From a virus: DNA of 33,446 nucleotides. Below, in pieces: positions 5,198-21,578 of this stretch. The notes under the pieces were generated by a model. It was given only the letters and a program-made list of their open reading frames with translations, had not been told where the DNA came from and ran no database searches. The DNA is taken from positions 1 to 33,446 of the IMG/VR virus record IMGVR_UViG_3300025138_000173. The stretch is one strand, 5' to 3'. Numbering within the stretch: position 1 is the first letter of the stretch; every line of letters begins with the position of its first letter. Both the position numbers and the translations under genes were made by a program.

Positions 5198-5432
5198 TAA
5201 AGAAATATTAGAAAACGCATCGGAGATAGCGATGAAGGCAGATGGCTTTGATGAAGCAATCATAGGGCTAACATCAGGAGGGCTTGTTGCTTATAGCTAC
5301 GAAAAATGTGTAGAGGTGGTAATGGAGGACTTTAACATTGAATATATTGACGCATTAGAATACGTTGAGTTTAATGTTGTTGGAAGCTATGTGGGCGAAG
5401 GTACGCCAATATTTATAATAACGAATGGATAA
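5190..5432 (+). CDS. Small conserved phage protein between terminase genes, 80 aa
   Basis: Acidic protein with the pattern GLTSGGLVAYSYEKCVEV, IEYIDALEYVEFNV and GSYVGEGTPIF, seen in small phage proteins that often sit near terminase or virion genes. No function is established. It overlaps the genes on both sides by 8 bases, so it is an integral part of the packaging operon. Confidence 0.7.
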   Translation: MDSKEILENASEIAMKADGFDEAIIGLTSGGLVAYSYEKCVEVVMEDFNIEYIDALEYVEFNVVGSYVGEGTPIFIITNG

Positions 5433-6852
5433 GGCTACTAAAAAACAAATGCTCAAGGCAATGGAGAAAGCCATTTGCGAGAAATCGTTTTATGAGTTCT
5501 TTATTAAGTCATTTCCAATAGCAGAGCCATCAGTACCTCTGTCAACTAATTTCCACCATAAATACCTTTGCGATATTCTACAAGGCGAAGCCGAAAGGAT
5601 AATAGCAGGTAAAGAAAAAGATAAGGATATAATTATTAACATTCCTTTCCGTAGCACAAAGTCTTTATTGGTTACAGTTCTGTTTCCCGCTTGGTGTTGG
5701 GCTGTTCATCCTAAGATGAGGTTTATAACAGCTTCCTACTCTGCGGAGATTAGTATTGAACACGCAACTAAGTCAAGAGATATAATACAAAGCGAATGGT
5801 ATCAAAGCCATTGGGGAGAGAAATTTCAAATTAAGAAAGACCAAAACCTTAAAGCACGATACGAGAATACATTTCTAGGAGTTAGGAGAGCAACATCTGT
5901 CGGAGGTTCTGTTACAGGACAAGGGGGAGATATAATATTAGTCGATGACCCTACATCTCCAAAGAACGCTGCATCCGAAACAGAAAGAGATAACGCAAAC
6001 GAATGGTATAAGTCAACACTATACTCACGACTTAACGAACCTACAAAGGGAGTTAGGATAATTATTATGCAAAGAGTACACGAAGACGACCTTAGCGGTT
6101 ACCTACTTTACAACTCTCCTGACAAACACCAACACATTTGCATACCCGCAGAACTATCTGACGACCTAAAACCTAAATATCTTGCCGAACACTACGAAGA
6201 TGGTCTGTTTTGGAAGGAAAGGTTCTCTAAACACATACTAGACGACTATAAATCAGCTTTAGGCTCTTATGGATATGCAGGACAGCTACAACAGCGACCT
6301 ACACCTGCCGATAGTGGTATGATACAGAAAAATTGGTTTAAGATTGATACAGACAAGCTAGATGGAGTAGTAAACTTCGTTATTGACCCTGCGTACACCG
6401 CAAGTCAGAAAAATGACCCCTCTGCCCTGTTAGCATACATATTCTTAGACAATAAATGGCAAATTACCGAAGTTCAGAACGTAAGACTTGAATTTCCTGA
6501 CCTTGTTAAGCATATAGGTAAGTTTGTACACAAGAACGGTTACACTAGCCAATCTAAAATATATGTAGAACCAAAGGCAAGTGGTAAATCAATAGTTCAA
6601 ACTCTTGTAAGAGAAACAGGATTGAACGTAAAAGAAGACAAACCTCCAACAAAAGACAAGGTGGCTAGAGTACAAGACATAAGTGCTACCTGTGAAACAG
6701 GCAGAGTGTCTTTGCTAAAAGGACATTGGAACGAAGAATTTTTAATGCAATGTCAGCAATTCCCTGCGGCAAAGCACGATGATATGGTAGATTGCCTTGT
6801 AATGGCACTAAGTCATCACTTTTCTGCACAGAAAGTGGTATTCTTTGGCTAA
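5425..6852 (+). CDS. terL: Terminase large subunit, 475 aa
   Basis: ATPase and nuclease that packages DNA into the prohead. The N-terminal ATPase has a deviant Walker A, INIPFRSTKS (residues about 71-80), where the usual PRxxGKS glycine is replaced (STKS), and a Walker B IILVDDP (170-176) followed by the QRVHEDDLSG coupling region (about 216-225). The C-terminal RNase H-like nuclease shows VIDPAYT (Asp321) and HDDMVDCLVMAL (Asp452, Asp453, Asp456). Length is normal for this class. It starts 8 bases inside the preceding gene. Confidence 0.95.
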   Translation: MDKATKKQMLKAMEKAICEKSFYEFFIKSFPIAEPSVPLSTNFHHKYLCDILQGEAERIIAGKEKDKDIIINIPFRSTKSLLVTVLFPAWCWAVHPKMRFITASYSAEISIEHATKSRDIIQSEWYQSHWGEKFQIKKDQNLKARYENTFLGVRRATSVGGSVTGQGGDIILVDDPTSPKNAASETERDNANEWYKSTLYSRLNEPTKGVRIIIMQRVHEDDLSGYLLYNSPDKHQHICIPAELSDDLKPKYLAEHYEDGLFWKERFSKHILDDYKSALGSYGYAGQLQQRPTPADSGMIQKNWFKIDTDKLDGVVNFVIDPAYTASQKNDPSALLAYIFLDNKWQITEVQNVRLEFPDLVKHIGKFVHKNGYTSQSKIYVEPKASGKSIVQTLVRETGLNVKEDKPPTKDKVARVQDISATCETGRVSLLKGHWNEEFLMQCQQFPAAKHDDMVDCLVMALSHHFSAQKVVFFG

Positions 6853-6881
6853 ACAGGGTATAAAATTGAAAAATGACAAAA

Positions 6882-6907
6882 ATTGCGTAATTTAAGCAAT
6901 AATTTTT
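6882..6907 (+). terminator. Weak hairpin after terminase gene
   Basis: ATTGC (6882-6886) pairs with GCAAT (6896-6900), then AATTTTT. Only 5 bp, so at most an attenuator between the terminase and tail genes. Confidence 0.35.
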
Positions 6908-6913
6908 AACAAA

Positions 6914-6922
6914 TTTGCAACT
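6914..6922 (+). promoter_or_regulatory. Possible promoter with TTTGCAACT upstream of ATG
   Basis: TTTGCAACTATG here is identical to the sequence at the protease gene start (18799-18810). The TAnn part of the -7 element is poor (CAAATTTG), so the call is tentative. TTTG is 5 bases from the ATG at 6923, again predicting a leaderless transcript. Confidence 0.4.
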
Positions 6923-7303
6923 ATGACTAAAATAGAAGGTGTAAGCGAAGAACACACGGTAATCTTAACAGAATACCTTACTTTCTTGAAAAAACAGCTA
7001 TATACTATAACAGAATACTGTGATGAAGGTAAATATCACGATTTTGAAGACGTTTTAGAAGATATAATATCATATTATGTTGATTTCAAGAAATACGCTG
7101 TTCACGATGAGGCAGGTATGGAAGAATGGATTTATATGTTGCCAAACTTGACTATGTACTCATTTATGGGGTTTTTAGCGGGTGTAAAGAACAAAAGAAA
7201 CATTATAGTAATAGATAAGGTCTATGAAAGTGTTTTAATGTCAACAATGGAAACGATTGGACTTATCTCCGATTCTATTCAGGATAAATTAGAAGTAAAA
7301 TAA
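6923..7303 (+). CDS. Phage hypothetical protein at start of tail module, 126 aa
   Basis: Acidic helical protein with conserved-looking aromatic clusters (YYVDFKKYAVHDEAGMEEW, LPNLTMYSFMGFLAG). No recognised family and no clear membrane span. It begins the tail block, one base before the chaperone gene, so it may be an assembly or head-tail factor; that is inference from position only. Confidence 0.65.
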   Translation: MTKIEGVSEEHTVILTEYLTFLKKQLYTITEYCDEGKYHDFEDVLEDIISYYVDFKKYAVHDEAGMEEWIYMLPNLTMYSFMGFLAGVKNKRNIIVIDKVYESVLMSTMETIGLISDSIQDKLEVK

Positions 7304-7304
7304 T

Positions 7305-7946
7305 ATGTTAAATATAACTATAAATAAAAAAGATTACGAGATTCCAAACAAGTGGTCAGAAATGACTTTAGAATACTACTGCGGAATATATGAGATAATC
7401 AAAAAGTATCAGCGTACCGAAGAACAAAACGAAGAAGATGAGGGGAAAGACCTATCAAAATTCTTTTTTGTTCAAGAAACAAGGATGTATCGTGAGTTAT
7501 TTATCTATATGACAAATATTGATAATGACACAATGGATAAAATTCCAATGGAGGATGTAGAATCTGTAATTAAATGCTTAGACAACATTATGGAAAAGTA
7601 TGAGCCAAAAGGAATTACACATTTTGTGTTAAATCACGATACATACTATTTTCCAATGGATTTTCTAAGAACAGGAACTTTTGGAGAGTATATTGAATCA
7701 AGTCAGCTTGAGATGAACACAGAGTACCTAAAGAACGGTAGATTTGATATTTTACCCGAACAAATGGCTATTTTGTGTAAACAAGTTGACGAAGAATTAG
7801 ATTTAGATAATATTGACGAAAAAACAAAACTTTTCAAACAAATAAAAATGGATATTGTTTGGGAGTTCAGTTTTTTTTTGAACAAACGTGCAATATCATC
7901 TCTAAGTCTTATCCAAACCTTTTTAGGGGAGGAACAGATAGCGTAG
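7305..7946 (+). CDS. Tail assembly chaperone, G-like (frame 0 product), 213 aa
   Basis: Begins with a short beta region (LNITINKKDYEIPNKWSEMTLEYYC), then an acidic helical body, as in tail chaperones of Bacteroidota siphoviruses. The assignment rests on the arrangement: its 3' end overlaps a -1 frame extension at a run of nine T (7871-7879), as in the lambda G/GT pair, within the tail module. Frame 0 reads FSFFLNKRAISS and stops at 7946. Alternative: two separate tail genes with a chance overlap. Confidence 0.6.
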   Translation: MLNITINKKDYEIPNKWSEMTLEYYCGIYEIIKKYQRTEEQNEEDEGKDLSKFFFVQETRMYRELFIYMTNIDNDTMDKIPMEDVESVIKCLDNIMEKYEPKGITHFVLNHDTYYFPMDFLRTGTFGEYIESSQLEMNTEYLKNGRFDILPEQMAILCKQVDEELDLDNIDEKTKLFKQIKMDIVWEFSFFLNKRAISSLSLIQTFLGEEQIA

Positions 7947-8173
7947 CTGTTGCAAAGGCAAGTAAGATTATGAAACCATTTGGTTGGCTTAATACTCTTT
8001 ATGACTTAGCAATGGATGGTGTTTTTACTACAAATGGTAAAGATGCAATACAAAGCGTAAAAGATGAAAGTCTGTATAAGGTTTTAACTTTTATGTCTTG
8101 GAAGACAGCTAAAACAGATTATGAAATAGCTGTAAACGAAGAACAAAGAAAACTAGCAAACAATGGCATTTAA
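7859..8173 (+). CDS. Tail chaperone GT extension read by -1 frameshift
   Basis: This frame is -1 relative to 7305-7946. It has no ATG near its 5' end (the first Met is about 40 codons in), yet the sequence before that Met, EQTCNIISKSYPNLFRGG, looks like real protein. A slip on the T run would join it to the upstream product, giving a protein of about 289 residues. The C-terminal part (FGWLNTLYDLAMDG, LYKVLTFMSWKTAKTDYE) resembles the T part of Bacteroidota phage chaperones. It ends overlapping the next ATG. Confidence 0.6.
   Translation: MGVQFFFEQTCNIISKSYPNLFRGGTDSVAVAKASKIMKPFGWLNTLYDLAMDGVFTTNGKDAIQSVKDESLYKVLTFMSWKTAKTDYEIAVNEEQRKLANNGI
7869..7881 (+). other. Candidate -1 frameshift slippery site (T9)
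   Basis: Nine T at 7871-7879, read AGT TTT TTT TTG in frame 0 and AGT TTT TTT TTT GAA after a -1 slip. It satisfies the X XXY YYZ rule with all T. No obvious strong pseudoknot downstream; transcriptional slippage is also possible on such a run. Confidence 0.6.
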
Positions 8174-9341
8174 AAGGCTAAGAGAATTAAGAGATAGGTT
8201 TGAACAACAATGGATAAACGGAGGTTTTATTTTTGGTTATGAAAATGAAATTAATGAAAATCACAATAACGATTATCCGTTACTTCTTGTTTTACCACCA
8301 ACATCAGAACTTCCTGCAACGGAAGGAGATAGTAAGGAAGATTACACTTTTGAGTGTTTAGTCGTTAAGCCTTATCATCAAAACCAAACAGGCTCACTTG
8401 ACGTAGTGCTTTCACTATTAGAACAAGAAGCCCTTACTTGGTTACAAAGAGTATTAGATAGCTACACAAATAAAGAGGTAATTTTAAGTCCTAACAGTAT
8501 ATCAGTTGAACGAGAAAAAGAACTATATAACGACAAGTTGATACAAGTTAGGCTTACTTTTACTCTTAATGCTTTCTCACATCACTTCTCTCACTATGAC
8601 GAGAGTTCTATAACTGCTTTATCTCCAAGTATTTGGTTGAGGTCAGATTTAGGTGTTAAAACGCAAATGTTTGGAGGTAACGAGGTTGTAACAAGATGGA
8701 AAGACCAAAGTGGTAATTCTAACGACTTTATACAGGCTACATCAACAAAACAGGCTTCCTATGAATACGAAGACACTACCAATGGCTATCCTTACCTTAA
8801 TTTTGATGGAACGGATGACTTTATGCAATGTGTAAATAATTCTATTGACGGAACGTCAGATTCTTTAGATAGAGCAATATCTATGTTCTATATAGCTAAG
8901 ACCAACACTGCAACAGCAGGCTCTCTTATATCTTTAAACGCTTCTAATGCTGCTTTTCCTCAAATAGATATTAACGCAAGGGTAAACAACGGAGAATCAA
9001 ATTGGAACAATTACCTTAATGATAGTCAAGATGATGTTTCTAGTTATATATACACAACTGATGTTTTAAACACAACGGGAGTGTATGGATTTACCTTAAA
9101 AGCAAACGGAGAAATGATGTCTTACTATAATGGTGCTAAGGTAGATACAGAGGACAACGCAAGTTTTGACCCACAGCCATATACCAACGTATATCCAATA
9201 ATGTTGGGTGCTACTAGGTTTGTTTCTCCTGCAAACTTTTTAAACGCACAGATACAGGAGATACTTATATTTGACAAAGCTCTTAGTACAGACGAAGCAT
9301 TGCATTTATCAAAATACTTACAACATAAATACAACATATAA
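8163..9341 (+). CDS. Tail-terminator-like protein fused to LamG-like domain, 392 aa
   Basis: Residues 1-145 look like a small tail-terminator/completion protein: alpha/beta, with LLVLPP, YTFECLVVKPY and a LTFTLNAFSH end. Residues about 153-392 form a LamG/concanavalin-type beta-sandwich: SPSIWLRSDLGV, WKDQSGNSNDF, FDGTDDFM and a C-terminal EILIFDKALSTDEALHLSKYL. Such domains usually bind glycans or decorate virions. The fusion would place a binding domain at the tail tube or neck. Tail-terminator identity is inferred from size and place after the chaperone pair. Confidence 0.65.
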   Translation: MAFKRLRELRDRFEQQWINGGFIFGYENEINENHNNDYPLLLVLPPTSELPATEGDSKEDYTFECLVVKPYHQNQTGSLDVVLSLLEQEALTWLQRVLDSYTNKEVILSPNSISVEREKELYNDKLIQVRLTFTLNAFSHHFSHYDESSITALSPSIWLRSDLGVKTQMFGGNEVVTRWKDQSGNSNDFIQATSTKQASYEYEDTTNGYPYLNFDGTDDFMQCVNNSIDGTSDSLDRAISMFYIAKTNTATAGSLISLNASNAAFPQIDINARVNNGESNWNNYLNDSQDDVSSYIYTTDVLNTTGVYGFTLKANGEMMSYYNGAKVDTEDNASFDPQPYTNVYPIMLGATRFVSPANFLNAQIQEILIFDKALSTDEALHLSKYLQHKYNI

Positions 9342-11578
9342 TGGCAAGTACGCAACTAATACAACAACCAATATCACATATAAAAGGATTAATCTCAGCA
9401 CACGAACCTATAAAGTTTACGCTTAGGTTGTCAGATTCTACTGCAATAGATAATTTTCCGTCTTGTTTGTTTATAATTACCCCTAGAGATTCTCGTACTA
9501 ATGAATACGACTATGATAATAAAGTTACGATACGAGTTCAGCCATCAATAAATGTTCCTAATATACTTTCAACCGAAGGCGGTAATAAGTCTACCATAAA
9601 CGACTTTGCTCTTGACTTAAGTAGTATATGTAGAGATTACCTTTCTTACGACCTAAGAAGCTGTACTCAGGACACCTCTAAGGGTGTCAACAGAGATATT
9701 ACACAGTCTATGCCATCATACAATATGTTTAAGGAGTTTAGTGTTACTATTCGCCCTGAAGAATTAGTTTCAGGAGTTTTAACACCTGATTCTAACATTG
9801 AGAAAGTTTATAACTTTAAGGTTGCTAACGTAGCTTTTTCTCACGAAGAACAGCATAGCCTTTACATAGCAAATAGATTATATCAAGACGGAGATGACTT
9901 TGATTCAAACGAGGGATTGCTAAAAGCTTTTACGCATAGTGCAGATAATACAACGGGAAGGCAAAAATACCTTACACTAAAACCAAATCATAGGATAATA
10001 GGTACTGACGAATGTGAATACATTTCTATTGTTGCAAAGGGAGGGGAAACAAACTATCCTTACGCACTAATAAATTTTACATTTAAAAGCGGACTTGGAT
10101 TAACTGATGGTCGAGGGAATACACTAGCACTTAAATTAAACTTTTCTGCTCAAGGAAACGGAAGTTATAGTTCTTCAGGTGGTATTTACCATTGGGGAGG
10201 AAATCCTATTGATAACGACTTTGCCTCACACAAACCTGAGCTTGGTGTTTTTCAGTTAGGAGTAGGAACAAGAAATATAAAAGAAGCATTTTTTGGTTGG
10301 ACTGATAGAACTGAAGATGGCACTCCACCAATAGGAGATTGGAGTAACATAGCTTCCTATACAGTAAAAACTTTAGGCTCTAACGACAGCAAACAGGTAG
10401 GGCAAACATTAACTTATCACATAAACCACGATTCAGAAAACGACAAGTATTTTGGAAAGTCGGTAAGGTTTCATTGGCAAAACAGACTAGGAGGTATAGA
10501 CAGTTATACTTTTGATGGTATGGCAACGGAAGGAATAAAAGTTTCCTCTAAGATGTACGAGCAATCTATATACCCACAATTTACAGGACAGATAGGTAAT
10601 TCAGTAGATAGTGCTAAGTTGTTTGCAAATTCAGAAACTCCTAACACAAGTTTAAAGTATGGAGGCTTAAATAACAGGATTGGAGGTCTTACCTCAGACG
10701 AGTACAGAAGTGTCAGCAAATCGACTGTAAAAGCCTTTAGAGAGGGTCAGGCGGTATCAAACCCATACCCAAAACAACAACAACCTATGATGGAGGATTT
10801 ATTATCTTCTCCTAACGTATGGGTAGAAAGAGGTTGGAAAGGTAGAGAGATATTTAGAGATAACTTTGATGCAATACCAACATCGGGTAGTTGGAATGTA
10901 AGAGTAGGAGATTTTACAACAAGCGGTAGCGTTTCTTCTGCTGACGGTCATACAACGGGAACTAATGCTTACATTAAAGGCGATAACGGAGGAAATGATG
11001 AGCTTTGGGTAGATAGTAAGAAGCTATTTTATTACGACCCTGAAAAGATTTATGAGGTAGAAGTAAGGGTAAAGCGTACAGGAAGTGGCTTAGGAACTAC
11101 TTATTGCGGATTATTAGGGTATGCAGAAAACAAAACTACTAAAATAAGTACAGCAGGAGCTAATACTCACGATTCAGCTCATTATATAACCCTAAAAAAT
11201 TACGACCAAACAAGTAATGATGAGTGGGAAGTATGGAGGGGGTATATATCGGGTCATATATCTGCGGGAGATACAGCAGGTAGTCTATCAAATAGCCCAA
11301 ACTTTCCTGCAAAAGCATATACGGATATAGAGTATTTTGCACCACAATTTATATTTCATTTTGACGACAAAGCAGGGACAAGTTTTATAGACTACCTTGT
11401 AGTAAGAGAATACGAAAGTGATTTACCAATGACTAGCGGATGGTACAGCACATTAAACAAGAACTACTATGTTCCTGTAAATATAAAAGATGCTTCTACG
11501 TCAACATTTGATAGCGAGAATCAATCTACTATGACAATAAACTACGTTGAAAGTAAAGAAAAAAGAACTATACAATAA
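9341..11578 (+). CDS. Large tail protein, probable distal tail/baseplate, 745 aa
   Basis: Almost all beta-structure. The first ~180 residues resemble N-terminal parts of Bacteroidota phage tail proteins (SAHEPIKFTLRLSD, PRDSRTNEYDYDN, LSSICRDYL). Residues ~535-690 (FRDNFDAIP, SGSWNVRV, then KIYEVEVRVKRTG and SFIDYLVVREY) look like a carbohydrate-binding-type jelly roll. Position between the tail-terminator-like gene and the SKTFKIPATK tail protein supports a distal-tail or receptor-contact role. It overlaps the neighbouring genes by one base (TAATG). Confidence 0.65.
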   Translation: MASTQLIQQPISHIKGLISAHEPIKFTLRLSDSTAIDNFPSCLFIITPRDSRTNEYDYDNKVTIRVQPSINVPNILSTEGGNKSTINDFALDLSSICRDYLSYDLRSCTQDTSKGVNRDITQSMPSYNMFKEFSVTIRPEELVSGVLTPDSNIEKVYNFKVANVAFSHEEQHSLYIANRLYQDGDDFDSNEGLLKAFTHSADNTTGRQKYLTLKPNHRIIGTDECEYISIVAKGGETNYPYALINFTFKSGLGLTDGRGNTLALKLNFSAQGNGSYSSSGGIYHWGGNPIDNDFASHKPELGVFQLGVGTRNIKEAFFGWTDRTEDGTPPIGDWSNIASYTVKTLGSNDSKQVGQTLTYHINHDSENDKYFGKSVRFHWQNRLGGIDSYTFDGMATEGIKVSSKMYEQSIYPQFTGQIGNSVDSAKLFANSETPNTSLKYGGLNNRIGGLTSDEYRSVSKSTVKAFREGQAVSNPYPKQQQPMMEDLLSSPNVWVERGWKGREIFRDNFDAIPTSGSWNVRVGDFTTSGSVSSADGHTTGTNAYIKGDNGGNDELWVDSKKLFYYDPEKIYEVEVRVKRTGSGLGTTYCGLLGYAENKTTKISTAGANTHDSAHYITLKNYDQTSNDEWEVWRGYISGHISAGDTAGSLSNSPNFPAKAYTDIEYFAPQFIFHFDDKAGTSFIDYLVVREYESDLPMTSGWYSTLNKNYYVPVNIKDASTSTFDSENQSTMTINYVESKEKRTIQ

Positions 11579-14211
11579 TGGCTGAAATAAAAGTTGAGTT
11601 AAGAGATTTTGACAATAAGATACTAGGTAGTCTTGATATTACTTCTAGTGATAACTTTCCTTTGTCTTTGACCTATCAGAATTTTGATATTAGAGATTTT
11701 AGTTCAAGAAACGGTAGCTTTAGTAAGACTTTTAAAATACCCGCTACTAAACACAATAACGTATTGTTAGCACATATTTACAAAGATGGTAACATTGATG
11801 TAAAAAACACTAGAGCAGATATACCATCTACAATATATTCAGACAATGTTCCGATAGTATCGGGTACTCTTAAAGTAACAAAAATATTAAAGAATACAGA
11901 TGTATTAGAGTATGATTGCAACTTCTTAGGAGATAATATGGATTGGGCTTCTAAGATTAAAAACAAAGACCTTAAAGAGTTAACATTTACAAAGACGGGA
12001 GGTTACATATATGATGACGTACAAGGATTGTCGGGTAACGCAAGAGATTTTTCAACTTTTCAATCAACAGAAGACACTTTACACTATCCATTAATGTCTG
12101 TTGGAGAAGGGGATAGCCCAAGAAATCAAGTTGTAGATTCTGATTTTGTTCCTTCTTTTTATCTTAAAACAATATGGGATAAGATATTTGCTGCCGAAGG
12201 ATATACGGTAGATAGTCAGTTCTGTAATAGCGACTACTTTAAATCACTTATAGTTCCTTTTGAATTTCAAAGGCAGGGAGAGATAAGTAACTTTAAGTAC
12301 GGAAAAATACAGAGAACGTCAGAAAGTTCAGAATTAGGTGTTCTTAACCATGGTAACGATATAACTAACCCCGCACCTCACGTTGCATCAACAAGCCTTA
12401 CCGTTAGCGGAAGAATAGGTAGGTTGACACAACTTGCCAATGGCAATATAATACAAGCTAGATTTCCTTTTAACGGACAGCTAGTGATAGATGATGCGGA
12501 TGTTCAGGCGGATACTTTGGCATTGCAAAATTCAACGGGAAATGTTCAAAAAGGCTCAAATACTCACGCAAGTATTGACGGTTCTACTATGCTTGTAAAG
12601 AACGAGGCGGGTACACACGCTATTGACTTTAACATAAACTTTAGACACTATAAAGAATCAGGGGGTAATAGTACGGTAAAATACAAAATAGTAGGAGAGC
12701 TTTGGCAGGTAAACGATGATTTTGATGGTAATATTTCAACAGATTCAGATTTAACTAACGGTACTTATTCGTTTTACAACACAGTAAACCTTGCAAATCA
12801 AGGAACTAACCCTGCAAACAACCCAATACAAAGGCTTTGGAGAGAGGAATCTGACCTAATACAAAGTCAGGGTCTTCACGATTCCACTTATAACTTTAGT
12901 ACCTCTCAAGATGGTGCTGTTATAGTTACGGGAAATGAAGTGGGGGTAAAATATATGTTTACTGCTGCTATTGAAATGATAGATTATGGTAGTTACAATT
13001 CAGGTAAAGTGCGATTTTCGTGGAAAAGCGGAACAATGGAAATTAAAGGTTCTGACACTATTGAGATTGGAGAGGACTTAGGGGATATACAATACTTTAT
13101 TCCAAAAGGAAAACAATCTGATTTTATTTCGGGTGTTTCGCAGATGTTCAACCTTCAGTTTAAAACTGATTCGGCATCTAAAATAGTTAAAGTAGAACCT
13201 TACGACTATTTTTACAAAAAATTTAGCGATTCTGTTGATTGGACTAGCAAAATTGATTTTTCAAAAACTATTCAAGATGAATTTATACACGATATAAAAT
13301 CAGAGATAGTAGTTAAATATAAGGATGCTTCTTCAGATGCTTTTTTAGAAAGGTTTAACAAGAAAAATGAAACTGATTGGGGTGCTTACAGAGAGCTAGA
13401 CACACAAGGAATATTTGCTGACGGAAACTATACTGTTGAGAATAAATATTTTTCTCCATCATTTAATTGGTATGAGATAGACTACGTTGACCAAGATGCG
13501 GGTCATTCATCAAGCAGAAGACCATTTATACCTATCTATCATTCTAAGTATTCTAATATAGAGGCTAACAGAAATGCAATAAGAGCAGAGAAAGATTTTG
13601 GAATAGGTGCTAGAGTTCTTATAACTGTTCCTGTTGATAGTGGAAACGAAAGATATATGAGTTCACAGTCAGGTCAAATCACAGGATATTCTACTCATAC
13701 TCTAGGAGATATTACAACATCTAATACTTTTGAGTTTGATTTTTGTAGAGCAAACTTCTTTCACTTAGACAATGCTCAAAACCTTTCTACGGGTTCAGAC
13801 CAATTTGGAGAGTTTGTGAAGTTAAACGCAGGAACTTATAATGGAACAGCACTACTTTTAGACCCAAATCTATCGTTCAACGATGTTGAATATTTAGATG
13901 CACAAAATTCAGGAAATACATCTACGCTAACAGGTTTGTTTAAGAGCTTTTATTCTAAAATGGTAAACCAACTAAAACAAAAGCCTAGAATAAAAAGCAT
14001 ATACATCAATCTAAATCAAAACGATATTGCTCTGTTTGATTTTCAAAGGCTTGTGTTTTTAGATGGAATTTATTACAGGGTTAACAAAATAGTTGATTTT
14101 AAGCCACATTTAAAGCAAAGTACAAAAGTAGAATTGGTAGAGTATTTTGATTTAGGATTAGAAAGCAATACGGGAGAAATAATGAATCTAGGAGAAGTAT
14201 TAAACTTATAA
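11578..14211 (+). CDS. Large tail protein of the Bacteroidota SKTFKIPAT type, 877 aa
   Basis: The N-terminus carries RDFSSRNGSFSKTFKIPATK (residues ~40-59) plus a nearby N-N-x-L, a signature I associate with tail proteins of Bacteroidota siphoviruses, probably a hub or tail-tip component. The long body is beta-rich and the C-terminus returns to a conserved-looking RLVFLDGIYYRVNKIVDFKP and VELVEYFDLG. Exact role (Tal-like hub or baseplate) is inferred from its place upstream of the tape measure and downstream of the distal tail protein. Confidence 0.7.
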   Translation: MAEIKVELRDFDNKILGSLDITSSDNFPLSLTYQNFDIRDFSSRNGSFSKTFKIPATKHNNVLLAHIYKDGNIDVKNTRADIPSTIYSDNVPIVSGTLKVTKILKNTDVLEYDCNFLGDNMDWASKIKNKDLKELTFTKTGGYIYDDVQGLSGNARDFSTFQSTEDTLHYPLMSVGEGDSPRNQVVDSDFVPSFYLKTIWDKIFAAEGYTVDSQFCNSDYFKSLIVPFEFQRQGEISNFKYGKIQRTSESSELGVLNHGNDITNPAPHVASTSLTVSGRIGRLTQLANGNIIQARFPFNGQLVIDDADVQADTLALQNSTGNVQKGSNTHASIDGSTMLVKNEAGTHAIDFNINFRHYKESGGNSTVKYKIVGELWQVNDDFDGNISTDSDLTNGTYSFYNTVNLANQGTNPANNPIQRLWREESDLIQSQGLHDSTYNFSTSQDGAVIVTGNEVGVKYMFTAAIEMIDYGSYNSGKVRFSWKSGTMEIKGSDTIEIGEDLGDIQYFIPKGKQSDFISGVSQMFNLQFKTDSASKIVKVEPYDYFYKKFSDSVDWTSKIDFSKTIQDEFIHDIKSEIVVKYKDASSDAFLERFNKKNETDWGAYRELDTQGIFADGNYTVENKYFSPSFNWYEIDYVDQDAGHSSSRRPFIPIYHSKYSNIEANRNAIRAEKDFGIGARVLITVPVDSGNERYMSSQSGQITGYSTHTLGDITTSNTFEFDFCRANFFHLDNAQNLSTGSDQFGEFVKLNAGTYNGTALLLDPNLSFNDVEYLDAQNSGNTSTLTGLFKSFYSKMVNQLKQKPRIKSIYINLNQNDIALFDFQRLVFLDGIYYRVNKIVDFKPHLKQSTKVELVEYFDLGLESNTGEIMNLGEVLNL

Positions 14212-15203
14212 TGAGTAAATTTTACAAAATAACTGACAAGCAAGAATCTTTACAAAAAGTGTATTGCACTATTGATGGAGTTTTAACACCTGTTGTCTAC
14301 AAAGAATTAACCTCTAGTTACACAACGGGTGCTGAGTATTCTTCTTATAACGACTTAAAAATTACAGGTCAAAAAAGATTGATTGCTCAGTCTTCCCTTA
14401 AAAACGCTTCGCCAATACAAGGGATTCTAACGGAAGAAGTGGAAACAACTACGACAACACCACAAAAGGGAACTGTTATTACAAAGACAACAACCAAAAT
14501 ATCTCCTATCTGTGTATTTGAGTTTAGCCACAAGGTGTTTGACGAAAACGGTTCTGTTTCTAAATGGGTAAGCTCTTTTGGAAGTTCATCGCTATCTCAA
14601 TCAACATCAGGAAATCAACCTGCTTTGGGATTTTATGGCAAGGGTATTAATGGTTCAGCACCTATATTTTTTGACGGTGCTAACTCAGATTTTATGTCTT
14701 TCGATTCTGCCATAACTCTAACAGGAGATTTTACTTTGTTTTTTTATGTTGAGCCATTAAAATATGTAGGAAGTATGAAACGTCAAAGACTATTGGGAAA
14801 GAGTGATAATGACAATATGTTTTTATCTATTGGAGAATTAGCAAATGAATCATATACACTAAGTTTTACTTCTTCAACTAAAGTTCAGGTTGCCAACACA
14901 CCTCTATATTGGTCTCCACATCAACCCGTAAAAGAAGATAAAAATAAGGTTTTAATTAGCGTTATAAGAAACGGAACAACACTTATCATAAGAGAGAATG
15001 GTCTTCAGGTGGCTTCCGAAACAGTATCAACAACAGACTTTACATTTGACCAAATGGGAAAGGTGTCTGACCAAGATGCTGATTCACAGACTATGCACTC
15101 AAGTATGTATCACTTTTCTGCTTTTAATGGTGCTATCGTTAAAAACTTAGAGAACATTGAGGCTTCTATATTAAAAAGAGTAAAACAAGCTAAATCTATA
15201 TAA
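14211..15203 (+). CDS. LamG-like tail fibre/adhesin protein, 330 aa
   Basis: Short N-terminal attachment region, then a Thr-rich linker around residues 78-95 (EETTTTTPQ-type with alternating Thr and Lys), then a concanavalin/LamG-like sandwich from ~130: KGINGSAPIFFDGANSDFM, GDFTLFFYVEP, LISVIRNGTTLIIRENG. Likely a virion surface protein that binds the host surface. C-terminal basic helix (LKRVKQAKSI). It is the second of three such domains in the genome. One-base overlaps with both neighbours place it in the tail operon. Confidence 0.65.
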   Translation: MSKFYKITDKQESLQKVYCTIDGVLTPVVYKELTSSYTTGAEYSSYNDLKITGQKRLIAQSSLKNASPIQGILTEEVETTTTTPQKGTVITKTTTKISPICVFEFSHKVFDENGSVSKWVSSFGSSSLSQSTSGNQPALGFYGKGINGSAPIFFDGANSDFMSFDSAITLTGDFTLFFYVEPLKYVGSMKRQRLLGKSDNDNMFLSIGELANESYTLSFTSSTKVQVANTPLYWSPHQPVKEDKNKVLISVIRNGTTLIIRENGLQVASETVSTTDFTFDQMGKVSDQDADSQTMHSSMYHFSAFNGAIVKNLENIEASILKRVKQAKSI

Positions 15204-15688
15204 TGAAGAACTTAAAGAGGGTGTTTAATAAGATAGGAAAGCTGTTAGTTAAAGAATTTAAAACTGAACTAGAGCAACAAGGACACAGGGCTTCTAAGTC
15301 AGGAAGTATTATAGACGGACTACGATTTACCACATCTGATACAGAATTAAAAATAACTACCGATAAGGCTTACGCTGCTGTTCTTAATGACGGTGCAAAG
15401 CCACACTTTCCAAACACAGATGCTATCGAAGATTGGGTTAGAAAAAAAGGATTTGCTAGTGATGAAAAAGAGGTTAAGAGAATAGCTTATGCGGTAGCGT
15501 TAAGAATAAGCAAAGAAGGAACTCCGACAAAAGAAAGTTATAGTCCTTCAATAACAAACAACGGAAGAAGAACAGGATTTATTGAGCAAGTTATAAATAC
15601 AAACAAACAACAAATTACAAAAGATATTCAGTCTGCTGTCGGAAAGGATATAGAAATACTATTTACTAAACTACCAAAAGAAATATAA
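15203..15688 (+). CDS. HK97 gp10-like tail completion protein, 161 aa
   Basis: Matches the HK97 gp10/minor tail pattern: basic N-terminal helix, DGLRF, then AYAAVLNDGAKPHFPNTDAI with the typical Y-A-x-x-x-(E/N)-x-G-x-x-P, followed by IEDWVRKKG and a C-terminal FIEQVINTNK helix. Proteins of this family act at the head-tail interface or as tail completion factors. It precedes the tape measure gene with a one-base overlap. Confidence 0.7.
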   Translation: MKNLKRVFNKIGKLLVKEFKTELEQQGHRASKSGSIIDGLRFTTSDTELKITTDKAYAAVLNDGAKPHFPNTDAIEDWVRKKGFASDEKEVKRIAYAVALRISKEGTPTKESYSPSITNNGRRTGFIEQVINTNKQQITKDIQSAVGKDIEILFTKLPKEI

Positions 15689-18420
15689 TGGCAAAGAACA
15701 CCACTATACATAGAATACAGATTGAAGGCACTAGCGACTTAATTAGATTAAGAAAAGAGTTGGATGGCTACCAAAAGTCTTTAAAAGAAGTAAAGAAAGA
15801 AACAAAAGATGGTATGACTAGCGGACAAGCTAAGAAGTATCAAGAACTTTCTAGCTCCATAAAGTCTACTCGTAAAGAGTTAAATCAAGCCGAGAAGTCT
15901 TTAAAGGGAATGAATACCACTAGCAAAAAAGGTATTGGTTTTATCGGTAAGATGGCAGGTGCTTTTGGAGCTGCACAAATTGCTAGTCAGGCTTTTACTA
16001 AGGTAACTAGATTGTTGGGTCAAGCTATAAAAGACGGTATTAAAACATTTAGAGATTTTGAATTTGCAATGGCTAAGGTAAAGGCTATTTCAGGTGCTAC
16101 TGATACTGAGTTTGTAAATCTACAAACATCTGCAAGAGAGCTAGGTAAAAGTACATTCTTTACCGCATCACAAGTAGCACAACTTCAATTAAACTTATCT
16201 AAACTTGGGTTTAGTTCTGATGAGATAATGCAATCTCAAGAAAGTATATTGCTTCTTTCTACTGCCTTAGGAGAAGACTTAGGTAGAACAGCAACGGTTG
16301 TGGCTTCTACAATAAGGGGTTTTGGTGCTGACACAATAGAAACTGCTAGATTTGCAGATGTTATGGCTTCTGCCTTTTCAAACTCCGCACTTGATATAGA
16401 GAAGTTTCAAACTTCAATGTCTAAAGTTTCCGCTATTGCTTCTATGGCAGGGTTTAGCTTTGAAGAAACAACGGGTCTTTTAGGGTTGCTTACAGACAGG
16501 GGTATCGAAGCATCTATTGCGGGTACTTCTCTTAGAAACATTCTTTTACATTTACAAGACGGGTCTTCAGACCTATCTAAAAAACTAGGAAGAACAGTAC
16601 ACTCAGGAGAAGATTTTATTGTTGCTTTAAAAGAGCTTAGAAATAGCGGTATAGATGTTGCAGGAGTTATGGAGATAGTAGATAGAAGGCAGGTTCAGGC
16701 AATGAACTCTTTTATTGACGGTGCTGATACTTTAACTGATTTCAATGCACTTCTTAGTAAGTCTTCGGGAGTTTCAGAGGAAATGGCAGAAATAATGGAA
16801 GACACCTTGTCGGGTTCTATATTAAAAGCTAAATCAGCTTGGGAAGGTCTTACCATAACTTTATTGGAAGGCGGAGGTTTTATGCAAAAAATGGTAGATG
16901 GTCTAACTTCTTCCATTTCAGCTCTTACCAACAGTTTTCAAACAGCAGAACAGGCAGCTAGTATTGAGTTTGGTGATAGGCTTAAAAAGGCTTCTGAACA
17001 ATTTGCTAAACACAAAAAAGATTACAATGATGCCCTTAAAAAAGGAGGCGGTCAAACTGTTATGATGAAAAAAGAACTTAGCGACTATCTTATGAAACAA
17101 GAAGACTTGTTGGCTAAGAATGTTCAGTTTTTAAAAACATCTATTGGAATGAGCCAAGACGGTACGTTTACCGCTAGTGCAGAGGGTTTAGGAATCTCTC
17201 AAGATGAACTTGATATGCAAATCAAGATGGTTAGGTCAATGGAAATTGCATTAAAACAATTATTTGTCCGAACAGACGAACAAGTACAAAAAGAAAAACA
17301 AAATGCTATTGATGAGAAGAACAGAAAAGATGAATTACAAAAGGCAATAGATGCTGAACTGTTAGCTAAAAAAGACTTAATAAAGGTTCAAGAGCTTTTA
17401 TTAGCTCAGGCTAAAGAATTACCACAGAATAACGAGGCAGAGTTGACCTTTAAAAATAAAAAAATTCAACTAATAAAATCGGAAATAAAAAGATTAAAAG
17501 AGTTAGGTGTAGAGAAAGAAAAACAATCAAGACTTCAAATTGGGGATAATGATTTTAGCGGAATTGTTGGAGATGTGATGTCAAGTGCAGATGAAGATAT
17601 TGCAGGTAAAGAAGCTGAGATGCGACAACAATATGTAGACGGAAAAATACAGTCTGAAGCTGAACTAAACGCAAAGATAATTGAAATGAAGATTGCACAT
17701 TTCAACGATATGTTAGCACTACAAAATCAATCAATCATTGGAGAAGAAGAAATAGCAAACAAGGTCTTATCTCTTGAGTTTATGAAAAAGAAGGCTGCTG
17801 ACGATACCGCAAAAGCAGACCAAGAAAATACAAACAAACTTATAGAAAATGCTATTATGTCTGCTGAAAGCGTAGAACAGGCTTTTGCTAATGTTATTAC
17901 CGTAAAGATTAATGAGATACTTTTAAACGCTATGTCTTCTATGTTTGCAGACGGAACTATACCGTTTTTTGCTAAAATTGGTCTTGCTCTTGGTATGAAA
18001 ACACTTGTAACTCCTATGATAGCAAAATTGTTTGGCGGTGGAGAAGGAGGCAAGTTTGAACAAGGAGGTCTTACAAACGGAGGAATGTTTAAGGGTTCTT
18101 CTCACGCTAACGGAGGTGTTAAGTTTGCGGTAGGCGGTAGAATACACGAGGCAGAAGGCGGAGAAGCTATTATAAACAAGCGTTCTACTGCAATGTTTAA
18201 ACCAATGTTGTCTGCTATGAATCAAGCGGGAGGCGGTGTTAAATTCGCTAACGGAGGTTTCTTGTCAACAGGAGAGAAGTTCGCAATGGGCGGAGAACTA
18301 GCTAACGTACAGGATATGATTAGTGGTGGAGGCGGTACTACGCAAGTGATAATGGTGGAGAGTGATGTAACACAAACTCAGGGTAGAGTGAGTGCTATTG
18401 AAAGTCAGGCTACTTTTTAG
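15688..18420 (+). CDS. Tail tape measure protein, 910 aa
   Basis: Scaffold that sets tail length. Charged coiled-coil N-terminus (~20-75). The TP901-type tape-measure domain spans about 120-330: FEFAMAKVKAISGATDTEF, then STFFTASQVAQLQLNLSKLG and AGFSFEETTGLLGLLTDRG. Then a charged helical region, and a Gly-rich tail (FEQGGLTNGGMFKGSSHANG, AEGGEAIINKRS) typical of tape measures. At about 0.15 nm per residue it predicts a tail near 135 nm (inference). Confidence 0.92.
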   Translation: MAKNTTIHRIQIEGTSDLIRLRKELDGYQKSLKEVKKETKDGMTSGQAKKYQELSSSIKSTRKELNQAEKSLKGMNTTSKKGIGFIGKMAGAFGAAQIASQAFTKVTRLLGQAIKDGIKTFRDFEFAMAKVKAISGATDTEFVNLQTSARELGKSTFFTASQVAQLQLNLSKLGFSSDEIMQSQESILLLSTALGEDLGRTATVVASTIRGFGADTIETARFADVMASAFSNSALDIEKFQTSMSKVSAIASMAGFSFEETTGLLGLLTDRGIEASIAGTSLRNILLHLQDGSSDLSKKLGRTVHSGEDFIVALKELRNSGIDVAGVMEIVDRRQVQAMNSFIDGADTLTDFNALLSKSSGVSEEMAEIMEDTLSGSILKAKSAWEGLTITLLEGGGFMQKMVDGLTSSISALTNSFQTAEQAASIEFGDRLKKASEQFAKHKKDYNDALKKGGGQTVMMKKELSDYLMKQEDLLAKNVQFLKTSIGMSQDGTFTASAEGLGISQDELDMQIKMVRSMEIALKQLFVRTDEQVQKEKQNAIDEKNRKDELQKAIDAELLAKKDLIKVQELLLAQAKELPQNNEAELTFKNKKIQLIKSEIKRLKELGVEKEKQSRLQIGDNDFSGIVGDVMSSADEDIAGKEAEMRQQYVDGKIQSEAELNAKIIEMKIAHFNDMLALQNQSIIGEEEIANKVLSLEFMKKKAADDTAKADQENTNKLIENAIMSAESVEQAFANVITVKINEILLNAMSSMFADGTIPFFAKIGLALGMKTLVTPMIAKLFGGGEGGKFEQGGLTNGGMFKGSSHANGGVKFAVGGRIHEAEGGEAIINKRSTAMFKPMLSAMNQAGGGVKFANGGFLSTGEKFAMGGELANVQDMISGGGGTTQVIMVESDVTQTQGRVSAIESQATF

Positions 18421-18427
18421 TATATTG
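18421..18427 (+). promoter_or_regulatory. TATATTGCG element upstream of ATG 18432
   Basis: TATATTGCG starts right after the tape-measure stop and lies 4 bases before the next ATG. The same TATATTGCG occurs before the phosphoesterase gene (27900). It may be a variant -7 element lacking one T, but evidence is limited to the shared sequence. Confidence 0.35.
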
Positions 18428-18431
18428 CGAT

Positions 18432-18752
18432 ATGGCTATTAGACAAAACAAAGAAGAAATAGTTTTAGAGTTCATTGATAACATATACAATGAGGTTAGA
18501 GCTAAGTTCTCTGAAGATGCGGGAATAAAGAATGTTTTGTATCATTTGATAGAAAGCGGACTTGTTGACCCTAAGCAACTAAGAGATTATATGGTTATAT
18601 CGGATTACAAGAAGATTATTAAGAAGAACGCAGGACATAAGACTTATACCTTTATGGATTTATCTATTAAGTATGATATTTCCGACAGGACAGCTCAAAC
18701 AATAGTTTATCGAGGAAAAGATAAGTTTAAGGGCGACAACAACATAAGATAA
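18432..18752 (+). CDS. Small putative HTH protein, 106 aa
   Basis: Helical throughout. The C-terminal region YTFMDLSIKYDISDRTAQTI (residues ~76-95) plus a following VYRGKDKF looks like a helix-turn-helix, resembling the end of Mor/small-terminase-like DNA-binding proteins. It could regulate the head genes that start at 18808, or be a second DNA-binding packaging factor; both are inference. It sits alone between the tail and head modules. Confidence 0.6.
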   Translation: MAIRQNKEEIVLEFIDNIYNEVRAKFSEDAGIKNVLYHLIESGLVDPKQLRDYMVISDYKKIIKKNAGHKTYTFMDLSIKYDISDRTAQTIVYRGKDKFKGDNNIR

Positions 18753-18794
18753 AGGTTTTACAACTTTTTTCGCAAAGTCTATAATAACTATATA

Positions 18795-18802
18795 TATATT
18801 TG
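18795..18802 (+). promoter_or_regulatory. Head-gene promoter, leaderless type
   Basis: TATATTTG at 18795-18802, then 5 bases (CAACT) before ATG 18808. No TTG at the -33 position. TTTGCAACTATG is shared with the gene at 6923. It starts the protease-capsid transcription unit. Confidence 0.65.
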
Positions 18803-18807
18803 CAACT

Positions 18808-19815
18808 ATGAACAAATGGTACTCAATAGAAAACAAAGCAGACGGTAACCCTGTCGAAATCTCTATATACGATGAGATTGGCGACTACGGAACTTCTGCT
18901 AAGAACTTTATAGAGGAAGTAAAGAATGTAAGTGATAGAGATATTACGCTAAGAATCAACTCTGTTGGTGGTAGTGTATTTGATGGTCTTGCTATTTACA
19001 ATACTTTACGTTCTCACAGAGGTTATGTAAACATTAAGATTGAAGGCTTGGCAGCATCAATTTCTACCGTTATTGCAATGGCAGGAGATAATATTGAAAT
19101 GTCTGAGAACGGATTTTTTATGATACACAACCCATTCGGACAATCGGCAGGAGAAGCAACTGATATGCGTAAAACTGCTGATTTACTTGACAAGATTAAA
19201 AGTGAAATTATCGAGATTTACTTAAAGAAAACAAACCTTTCGGTTGAAGCTCTTTCTGAAATGATGGATAAAGAAACTTGGTTGTCTAGTCAAGAGGCTG
19301 TTGAATTTGGCTTTGTTAATGATATAACAGAACCAATGAAGGTGGCTGCATCGTTTGACCTTTCTAAGTTTACTAACGTAAATGAAAAAGAGGTTAACGA
19401 CAAACTAGGATTAATTAATAACAAAAAATCATTTAAAATGACTGAAGAATTAAAAACTTGGTTTAATGGTGTTAAAGAAGAAATCTTAAACGCTGTTAAC
19501 GGAGAGAAAGTTTCATCTCCTGCTCAAGAAGTTTCTGTTCTTTTTACTGACAATGAAGAAGTAGTAAACAAGTTTTCTGAACTTGAAGAAAATGCAACAT
19601 CTTTAAGAGAGGAAAAAGAAGAATTAGAAGGTCTTGTTTCTGAAAAAGAAGGCTCAATAGCTGACTTGATGAACAAGGTTTCTGAATTAGAAGCTAAATT
19701 AGCAAAAAGTGAAGCTACTGAAACTGTTGTTGAAGCAGATAGCGACCCTGTTATTGTTACTGAAGAAGTAGTAGTTAACGAGTGGGATAGCTTTGCTAAA
19801 TCAATTTTAAAATAA
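18808..19815 (+). CDS. ClpP-like prohead protease with scaffold C-terminus, 335 aa
   Basis: Capsid maturation serine protease. Residues 1-190 are a ClpP fold: INSVGGSVFDGLAIYNTL, catalytic Ser84 in GLAASIST, His107 in FMIHNP and the probable Asp154 in MMDKETWLSS before QEAVEFGFV. The C-terminal ~125 residues are acidic and coiled coil (EENATSLREEKEELEGL), as expected for a scaffold. An internal ATG at 19438 could yield the scaffold alone, as lambda C/Nu3 does. Followed directly by the major capsid gene. Confidence 0.9.
   Translation: MNKWYSIENKADGNPVEISIYDEIGDYGTSAKNFIEEVKNVSDRDITLRINSVGGSVFDGLAIYNTLRSHRGYVNIKIEGLAASISTVIAMAGDNIEMSENGFFMIHNPFGQSAGEATDMRKTADLLDKIKSEIIEIYLKKTNLSVEALSEMMDKETWLSSQEAVEFGFVNDITEPMKVAASFDLSKFTNVNEKEVNDKLGLINNKKSFKMTEELKTWFNGVKEEILNAVNGEKVSSPAQEVSVLFTDNEEVVNKFSELEENATSLREEKEELEGLVSEKEGSIADLMNKVSELEAKLAKSEATETVVEADSDPVIVTEEVVVNEWDSFAKSILK
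19438..19815 (+). CDS. Possible nested scaffold protein by internal start, 125 aa
   Basis: In frame with the protease gene, ATG 19438 follows an A-rich leader (ACAAAAAATCATTTAAA) like other starts in this genome and lies exactly where the protease domain ends. The product would be MTEELKTWFNGVKEEIL... with a long coiled coil, fitting an internal scaffold. Lambda Nu3 is the precedent. Sequence context only; no direct proof. Confidence 0.45.
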   Translation: MTEELKTWFNGVKEEILNAVNGEKVSSPAQEVSVLFTDNEEVVNKFSELEENATSLREEKEELEGLVSEKEGSIADLMNKVSELEAKLAKSEATETVVEADSDPVIVTEEVVVNEWDSFAKSILK

Positions 19816-19843
19816 TAATATAAACTAACTAAATTTAAGTATT

Positions 19844-20875
19844 ATGGCATTTCCAAATACAAACAACTTACCTGCGTTTACGCAGATGGATGCTAACCAA
19901 AGCATTATTTCTCCTTTGTTCTTAGGACAAGACTATATGGAGTATATGAATGTTCTTCCTGATATTAAGGGAGTAACAAAAGTTGACCACTTAGGGTCAT
20001 TATCTAAAATTACTAAGGCTTTTACAGCAGGTGCTTTCGCAGGCGAAACTACGGGTACTTTCTCAGGTGTTACTATTACTCCTGCAAGAGTTGAAGCTGA
20101 AATTGAATTTTACTCTAACTCTCTATTCGGGAAAGTAAAAGCTCAATTAATGAAAGGAAACTTTGAGTTCGATAATATTGACGGTACTGCTGTTAAAAAT
20201 GTACTTATCGACTTAATCGCACAAGGAATCAAGGCTGACTTTAACAGACAGTTATTCTTAGGCGATGCTTCACTTAGTTCAGGTGGAGATTACCTAGACT
20301 ACAATTCTTACGATGGTATATTCGAAGTATGTAAAGATACTTTAGCTGCTGCTCAAAAATTAGACAACTCTGATATTACAGGTGTTGCTAACGGAGAAGC
20401 TCTTAACGCTGCTGCTGATGGTGTAAACATCTTACAAGCTATGTATGATGCTGCTACTCCTGAGTTATTAAGTGCAGGAAATCACGTTTTCTTTGTATCA
20501 GGCGATATTTACGACAAATACTCTGAGTATTTAGAAGGTACGGGTTATGCTGCGGCAGGACACTCTGTACTTGTAAACGGTATTCCAAACTTGACTTACA
20601 GAGGTATTCCTGTATTGGCTCGTAGAGATTGGGATGTAGCTGTTGCTGCTGACTTTGCTATTATCAATGGTGCTTCTGCTACTGAGGAAACTCACAGAGC
20701 TATCTTAACTACTCGTGATGCAATCATCGTAGGTACTGACTTTAGCGAAAGTGCAATGGAACAATGGTATTCTCAAGACAACAAGTCTTACAGATTCCGA
20801 GTATCTTATATGTGTGGAGTTGCTTTAGCTGATGCTAAACTAGCTGTTTGTTACACAGCAGATGCTTTAGCATAA
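19844..20875 (+). CDS. Major capsid protein, 343 aa
   Basis: HK97-fold capsid subunit, judged by length, position after the protease/scaffold, and typical sequence: N-terminal arm with NQSIISPLFLGQDYMEYM, a central VEAEIEFYSNSLFGKVKAQL, the P-domain region GNHVFFVSGDIYDKYSEYL, and VLVNGIPNLTYRGIPVLARR near the C-terminus. Its even codon usage (GCT, GAA, AAC frequent) and Ala/Gly richness fit a highly expressed gene. It lies behind an A/T-rich leader and is followed by a hairpin at 20890. Confidence 0.88.
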   Translation: MAFPNTNNLPAFTQMDANQSIISPLFLGQDYMEYMNVLPDIKGVTKVDHLGSLSKITKAFTAGAFAGETTGTFSGVTITPARVEAEIEFYSNSLFGKVKAQLMKGNFEFDNIDGTAVKNVLIDLIAQGIKADFNRQLFLGDASLSSGGDYLDYNSYDGIFEVCKDTLAAAQKLDNSDITGVANGEALNAAADGVNILQAMYDAATPELLSAGNHVFFVSGDIYDKYSEYLEGTGYAAAGHSVLVNGIPNLTYRGIPVLARRDWDVAVAADFAIINGASATEETHRAILTTRDAIIVGTDFSESAMEQWYSQDNKSYRFRVSYMCGVALADAKLAVCYTADALA

Positions 20876-20889
20876 TTAATATAATTAAT

Positions 20890-20918
20890 GGGGGATGAAA
20901 TACTCCCCCTTAATTTTT
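20890..20918 (+). terminator. Hairpin terminator/attenuator after capsid gene
   Basis: GGGGGA (20890-20895) pairs with TCCCCC (20904-20909), an 8-base loop, then TTAATTTTT. GC-rich stem in an AT-rich gap; likely partial termination so that capsid is made in excess over downstream genes. Confidence 0.75.
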
Positions 20919-20938
20919 AACTTTTAAATAATAATAAA

Positions 20939-21511
20939 ATGGCAATAGAAAATTTAGTTTTAGCTGCTACTGACTTTGAGAAAAGAGGTGGGTTAAAACA
21001 TATAGGTCTTTGTGCAACATCAAACCTAACACCTACGTTTACTGCCGCAGGTACAGCAGATACTCACGCTGTGGCTTTAGTTGATAGTGCTTCCTTAGCT
21101 TTGTTTGACTTAAAGCAAGGTACGGGTTCTTTAACAACTAGCGGTTCAAAAGAAAATGGTGTTATGATGTTTGAGCATACTCTTTCATTCTACATTCCTA
21201 ACTGTTCAAACGTACACTTTGGAAACTTACAAAAATTATTACAAGAGCAAATTGCTGCTGTTGTAGTTGACCATAACGACCAAGCGTTCTGTATAGGTAT
21301 GTCTGCTACTTTTCAGCACACAACAGGTTCAGGCTCTTTCAATAATCAAATGTACGCTACAATGACAGGTCTTGAAGGTGGCACAGGTGCTGCTTTAGGC
21401 GATGAAAACGGTGTTACTGTTACTATTACTTGTTCTTCAGGAGAACTTCCTAGAACTGTATCAAGTACGGTTACTGTTGACCTTGCAGCAGGTACAATGG
21501 CATTATCTTAA
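20939..21511 (+). CDS. Probable major tail tube protein, 190 aa
   Basis: Beta-rich, Gly/Ala/Thr-rich and in a high-expression position between two hairpins. Shows features of tube proteins: a middle section SGSKENGVMMFEHTLSFYIP, a TFQHTTGSGSFNNQMYATM stretch and a GDENGVTVTITCSSGELP ending, as in the D-x-N-G-x-T-x-T pattern of phage tail tubes. A capsid-decoration protein is the alternative. A strong terminator follows directly. Confidence 0.5.
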   Translation: MAIENLVLAATDFEKRGGLKHIGLCATSNLTPTFTAAGTADTHAVALVDSASLALFDLKQGTGSLTTSGSKENGVMMFEHTLSFYIPNCSNVHFGNLQKLLQEQIAAVVVDHNDQAFCIGMSATFQHTTGSGSFNNQMYATMTGLEGGTGAALGDENGVTVTITCSSGELPRTVSSTVTVDLAAGTMALS

Positions 21512-21525
21512 TAATTAATTAAATT

Positions 21526-21563
21526 GGGTACGCATCGTGCATTTTGCACTTTGCACCCTTTTT
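21526..21563 (+). terminator. Rho-independent terminator after tube gene
   Basis: GGGT (21526-21529) pairs with ACCC (21555-21558); inner stems GCA/TGC and GTGCA (21537-21541)/TGCAC (21545-21549) around a 3-base loop; then a run of 5 T. Its 3' half contains the TTG of the next promoter. Confidence 0.85.
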
Positions 21564-21573: not shown

Positions 21574-21578
21574 TATAT

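Follow-up and report, generated by a model that had tools for sequence, protein, structure and literature searches.

The closest described systems are the gpG/gpGT pair of phage lambda and the pairs of HK97 type, in which a short protein and a minority C-terminal extension of it, read in the -1 frame, are encoded in the tail module. Tail assembly in lambda depends critically on the proportion of G to GT, which ribosomal slippage sets. Stimulators, such as a downstream structure or an upstream Shine-Dalgarno sequence, are frequent in -1 frameshifting but not obligatory, and G/GT pairs typically stand right before the tape measure gene, though this is not strictly defining. The frameshift of one HK97-type cluster was measured at 6-7% (PMC3711429).

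Two protein lengths are also obtained from single genes that contain homopolymers of at least nine nucleotides, as is the case of Shigella mxiE (a T run), Thermus dnaX (A9), Citrobacter tssM (A11) and IS elements. These share the homopolymer and the two products with the locus here presented, but they are not tail chaperones, and slippage was experimentally shown for them, whereas for the phage under study we infer it.

The locus lies in the window, i.e., the whole 33,446-nt stretch of the viral record IMGVR_UViG_3300025138_000173, where a short protein (G) can be extended by a C-terminal domain (T) into a fusion (GT), within a tail module as in lambda and HK97-type phages (Table 1). On the contrary, its slip site is an invariant T9/T10 run, the tape measure gene lies far from the pair, whose sequence shows no similarity to those systems, and a ribosomal mechanism is for it only a candidate. 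The full reading, namely a G/GT pair in which a minority -1 shift at the T9 run gives GT, is held with a probability of roughly 0.87. Most expression would end at the G stop, while a minority would move to the -1 frame at the nine T's and continue into T, producing a GT of ~289 aa; the shift would require a run of at least nine T's.

Table 1. Position of the slip site, its flanking elements and reference genes in the window.
Feature	Position	Strand	Remarks
Terminase large subunit	5425..6852	+	phrog_38, E 7.5e-97; two genes upstream of G
G ORF, 213 aa, ATG start	7305..7946	+	Made when no shift occurs; probably a tail assembly chaperone
TTG, sole start-like codon of the -1 ORF 5' of the run	7859..7861	+	Rejected as T start
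GGGAGTTC, immediately 5' of the T run	7861..7868	+	Near-fixed in clade 1; resembles a Shine-Dalgarno stimulator
Slippery T9 run	7871..7879	+	In frame AGT TTT TTT TTG (7869-7880)
Heptamer U_UUU_UUU in the T9 run	7871..7877		
Heptamer U_UUU_UUG in the T9 run	7874..7880		
T domain, 98 codons	7877..8173	+	In the -1 frame after the shift; kept in 63 representatives
TGA at the run end	7879..7881	+	Closes the +1 frame
Dual-read stretch after the run	7880..7946	+	Frame 0, ~22 residues of the G tail; frame -1, T start
Tape measure protein	15688..18420	+	phrog_1533, E 9e-63; PhageMin_Tail, E 1.4e-33; same tail-gene run

Overlapping frames at the T run

The initial annotation had proposed the pair from nine T's at 7871-7879, an overlap of frames in the -1 direction and a downstream frame lacking a suitable start. 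The run occupies exactly that position, the ORF at 7305-7946 overlaps a -1 frame that is open from 7817 to a stop at 8173, and this frame shows no ATG before 7971, already within the conserved T domain, the TTG at 7859 being its only earlier candidate. Frame 0 reads AGT TTT TTT TTG AAC across the run, and translation of the predicted fusion gives the junction ...WEFSFF(F/L)EQT..., in agreement with the spanning peptide that had been foreseen, FSFFFEQT. T9 runs are not by themselves unusual in such an AT-rich window (35% GC), where five are found on both strands versus 6.8 expected; the other four are intergenic when ORFs of at least 60 aa are considered, that at 7871-7879 being the only one inside a gene. 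It is the conservation of the run that goes far beyond chance.

Conservation of the run in two clades

Viral contigs were searched with G and T separately, yielding 333 loci with both parts, referred to as clade 1 and comprising 114 to 121 distinct sequences. The run is in frame as NNT TTT TTT TTR in all 333, none of which has G and T fused in one ORF, and T follows in the -1 frame in 331. The remaining two belong to a single contig (L033/L162, IMGVR_UViG_3300046169_000083) that has lost one base 3' of the run (ACTTTGCATC, against one additional G in its relatives), and whose unique placement of T in the +1 frame would reflect a sequencing error or a broken copy.

Within the 114 distinct sequences, the codon preceding the run is AGT, GTT, GCT, ATT, CTT or GGT (S, V, A, I, L or G), its wobble base being always T, and both Phe codons of the run are invariably TTT. 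The nearest Phe codon on the 5' side is TTC in most of them (104/113), so TTT in the run is not mere codon usage. The G family amounts to 69 representatives at the 88% identity level, reaching down to ~30% identity. Across G, NNT TTT TTT turned out to be the only three of 110 codon columns with zero synonymous diversity (median 0.47). As a counterpoint, the residues encoded in one frame or the other account for part of the constraint on T1, T8 and T9.

Among the fold matches to G, modeled with AlphaFold2 (pLDDT 80), was a protein from Nonlabens phage P12024S. In this phage, gp38 follows the terminase gene, holds ATA CTT TTT TTT TAT and is accompanied by a T-like domain in the -1 frame. Two further scans, one with some bias from a pattern that included the slip site and the other unbiased, extended this sister group (clade 2) to 112 distinct sequences, including the cultured P12024S and P12024L. 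Profile comparison indicates that both G (probability 97.6, E 5e-12) and T (probability 96.8, E 2e-10) are homologous between clades. The gp38-gp39 pair of P12024S/L resembles that of the window in having homologous G and T, a T9 run, a -1 frame and a location beside the terminase, but its register is NTT TTT TTT TAT instead of NNT TTT TTT TTG. In clade 2 as a whole, the register is NTT TTT TTT TNN, and an in-frame TTT TTT is followed by TAT, TAC, TGG or a Phe codon in all 112 sequences. The annotation of P12024S/L treats gp38 and gp39 as hypothetical proteins with no relation to each other and starts gp39 internally; G of this clade corresponds to phrog_32199 and the annotated T fragment to phrog_38404, both of unknown function. 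The T domain of P12024S gp39 (phrog_38404, 55 aa; L339:23663-23830) extends upstream in the -1 frame of gp38, this annotation being probably truncated.

Considered together, both clades (121 + 112 = 233 distinct sequences) present an unbroken run of 9 T's (204) or 10 T's (29), with 10 occurring only where the codon before the run ends in TT or, in clade 2, where the codon after it begins with TT. The arrangement that the initial annotation had suggested looking for in relatives is thus present in 331 of the 333 clade 1 loci and in the sister clade. Runs of 8 T's are absent from the 233 sequences, as are G and T in one unbroken frame, the patterns in relatives that had been expected from an assembly error.

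Integrity of the run and start of T

Homopolymers are prone to sequencing errors, and the pair might be a single gene split by such an error or a broken one. The relatives refute this explanation, to which practically no weight is given: the same run recurs across 233 distinct sequences, which come from many independent assemblies, as well as in two cultured phages, and the slip codons show no synonymous change. The same conservation (233/233) rules out a chance origin of the run.

T might alternatively be a separate protein, whose translation begins at the NTG just 5' of the run (window position 7859) or else at some internal ATG. An ATG, GTG or TTG does occur at the former site in 106 of 114 sequences, but this NTG is forced by the frame-0 Val-Trp codons GTN TGG, and its variable base follows valine codon usage with no enrichment in ATG; selection for a start codon at this point was accordingly discarded. 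In addition, (i) the remaining eight sequences have no upstream ATG, GTG or TTG (NTG is missing in L226, L239, L247, L249, L250 and L258, and is CTG in L276 and L278), their next such codon lying at least 25 codons downstream, within the conserved domain, (ii) a -1-frame stop directly precedes the slip site in L239 and L258, and (iii) internal ATGs sit within the conserved T domain. An independent start of T, which the initial annotation had named as the finding that would speak against a frameshift, is consequently excluded as a conserved mechanism, and a separate T protein is considered very improbable. That slippage at the T run fuses T to G is in turn well supported at the sequence level, given that fused frames and 8-T runs are absent, eight sequences lack an upstream T start and the slip codons have zero diversity.

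RNA polymerase or ribosome

The initial annotation had also noticed that a homopolymer would permit transcriptional slippage, and what is conserved is indeed the length of the run rather than a particular heptamer register. RNA polymerase adding an extra U, to give a 10-U mRNA, appears slightly likelier than the ribosome as the slipping machine, with both acting together accounting for the rest. For the polymerase alone, which has about an even chance, a T9 template would generate mixed mRNAs, of which those with 10 U (or 7 U) would encode GT. A tentative alternative, whose chances are somewhat below even, is that only the ribosome slips, moving to -1 on U_UUU_UUU or U_UUU_UUR as it does for the tail chaperones of lambda and other phages.

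The run is an A/T homopolymer that never falls below nine, and this length is kept though the register differs between clades, which argues for the polymerase. A following codon that contributes one T (TAY, TGG) is always paired with a preceding codon that contributes two (NTT), and where the following codon contributes two (TTR), the preceding one may contribute only one; because of these complementary T's, 8 T's never occur. A ribosomal heptamer would be provided by 7 T's in clade 1 or 8 in clade 2, and the extra T's come from different sides of the run; that at least nine are always kept although fewer would serve speaks against the ribosome. Moreover, the +1 frame is shut at once in 233/233, closing within 0-3 codons after the run, so that an 8-U mRNA would yield only truncated G.

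Run depletion was measured in 952 other ORFs of these loci against synonymous shuffles. A9 is found 11 times versus 44.5 expected (0.25) and A runs of at least 10 are absent versus 18.8 expected, while A8 is near expectation (0.89), in favor of polymerase slippage. In many bacteria, selection against slippage becomes apparent at a length of nine (PMC1088944). The depletion of in-frame T_TTT_TTT 7-mers is just mild (34 versus 49, 0.69), T7 in the other two phases being more depleted, which also agrees with the polymerase. On the contrary, T runs are depleted from seven upward and not from nine, so T data alone show no threshold at nine, and runs of at least nine T's in these ORFs are too rare for the comparison (3 seen, 5.6 expected). 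The direction of the shift, which never varies among the 233 sequences, also counts against the polymerase, for which a free direction is expected, even if not strictly defining.

This uniformly -1 direction is natural for ribosomes, and the tail chaperone fusions in a review on the subject are ribosomal (PMC5009743). Slippery sequences of the X_XXY_YYZ kind are available as well, since an in-frame U_UUU_UUU is always present, together with U_UUU_UUR in clade 1. Nonetheless, any T9 contains an in-frame U_UUU_UUU, so the heptamer cannot discriminate between polymerase and ribosome, and in E. coli both U_UUU_UUU and U_UUU_UUA are weaker slip sites than A_AAA_AAG (PMC5009743).

Ribosomal stimulators were also considered. 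For pseudoknot-free downstream structures, a 70-nt segment gave a mean z of -0.5, not distinguishable from its flanks, so a downstream stem-loop was rejected as stimulator; that no structure stands out weighs against the ribosome. The hairpin GTTCA/TGAAC around the run was likewise discarded, being found only in part of clade 1. Regarding Shine-Dalgarno stimulation, the octamer immediately 5' of the run is strongly constrained in clade 1, with GAG in 86 of 90 Glu codons versus 31% usage and TTC in the Phe codons counted above versus 16%; a TTT replacing this TTC before AGT would create a -1-frame stop. Its GGGAG, however, varies in deeper relatives, where neither it nor the whole GGGAGTTC is conserved, and Shine-Dalgarno-like sequences precede none of the 47 ORF starts in the window (the upstream bases are 50% A). 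GGGAG was accordingly dismissed as a general stimulator of this kind, and the unlikelihood of Shine-Dalgarno stimulation is a further point against the ribosome. Absence of Shine-Dalgarno sequences is the expected situation for Bacteroidota genes.

The two-product trick is known from other phages, and the strictly kept run length suggests that here it may depend on RNA polymerase. If so, the same control would have been reached by a different machine, as with dnaX, and the tail chaperone ratio would be fixed at transcription and not at the ribosome. Hosts without Shine-Dalgarno sequences in their genes are besides a natural place to seek frameshifting free of such stimulators.

A comparable arrangement in Cellulophaga phages

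In the gp55-57 region of the Cellulophaga phages phi17:1, phi18:1 and phi12:1 (Helsingorvirus), a G-like ORF ends in A9/A10 and a T-like ORF follows in another frame (loci L196:29740-30460, L483:1232-1943 and L484:1104-1815). These proteins belong to a different family, the homopolymer is of A and not of T, the direction differs between phages and, unlike in the window, the T-like ORF directly precedes the tape measure gene. By sequence, phi18:1 and phi12:1 have A9 with T in the +1 frame, as do phi18:2 and phi12:3 according to matching annotation and alignment, whereas in phi17:1 the run is A10 and T lies in the -1 frame. In all of them, the G and T frames would become continuous with 8 or 11 A's. 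This use of A9 or A10 with opposite directions by an unrelated chaperone-like pair suggests slippage without a fixed direction, and thereby favors the polymerase, although the difference could come from a homopolymer sequencing error in phi17:1. The wider proposal that a large group of Bacteroidota phages relies on polymerase slippage at an obligatory stretch of nine or more T's to make the tail chaperone fusion, and Cellulophaga phages likewise on A9/A10, falls just short of an even chance.

Probable function as tail assembly chaperones

The initial annotation regarded the pair as G/GT tail chaperones produced by -1 slippage. The -1 shift is firm, while the chaperone label is likely, based on the architecture, the position in the tail module and a weak fold similarity to the HK97 chaperone. 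Two overlapping ORFs, the second without its own start, would be joined by the shift, and the overlap contains a slippery sequence conserved as T9/T10 in 233/233. Judging from lambda, the role of G would be to coat the tape measure protein, and that of GT to bring in the tail tube subunits.

A true frameshift might nonetheless serve another structural or assembly pair, a reading considered unlikely. In its favor, known chaperone families give no significant match to G, for which sequence comparison with Pfam, PHROG and PDB was also negative, and G/GT (7305-8173) is not adjacent to the tape measure gene, which starts 7.5 kb downstream with five ORFs in between. Against it, the pair is a short/long one of the G/GT kind in the tail module of a tailed phage, and the HK97 tail assembly chaperone (2ob9) comes first among the PDB fold matches to G, with a non-significant score (E 2.2, probability 0.14) that is to be taken just as a hint; annotated chaperones are also found among the weak viral fold matches to G. 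The chaperone role is therefore preferred, with good confidence. It would give a likely function to phrog_32199, phrog_38404 and several hundred uncultured phages, in which gene callers cut T at an internal start or miss it. Flavobacterium phage 6H gp10 was discarded as a G homologue, its likeness being limited to the fold and its downstream frames being disturbed twice.

Host and genomic context

Searches of the phage collection by DNA or direct protein comparison retrieved no named relatives, and two scans of genome contigs found none either, so the host of the window phage can only be deduced. The best match of its terminase is that of Croceibacter phage P2559Y (45%), and relatives of this protein come from phages of Croceibacter, Chryseobacterium and Cellulophaga (Flavobacteriia); P12024S/L also infect a flavobacterium.

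Gene order over 5425-23004 of the window is terminase, G/GT, tail genes, tape measure, head protease, capsid candidate and portal, with tail genes preceding head genes. Other T9 runs inside ORFs of the loci studied are limited to L369:1362-1370 and L384:1362-1370, within a small upstream ORF (MAYDKKKIYEQAKEMIVKHRLFFFDDIIAYLP) that is possibly the small terminase. The window ORFs at 8163-9341 and 25385-26128 both match the virion protein family phrog_10356, the former with an additional weak LamG-like lectin match, and a metallophosphoesterase-like protein encoded at 27914-28678 is strongly similar to P12024S gp16 (E 6e-65).
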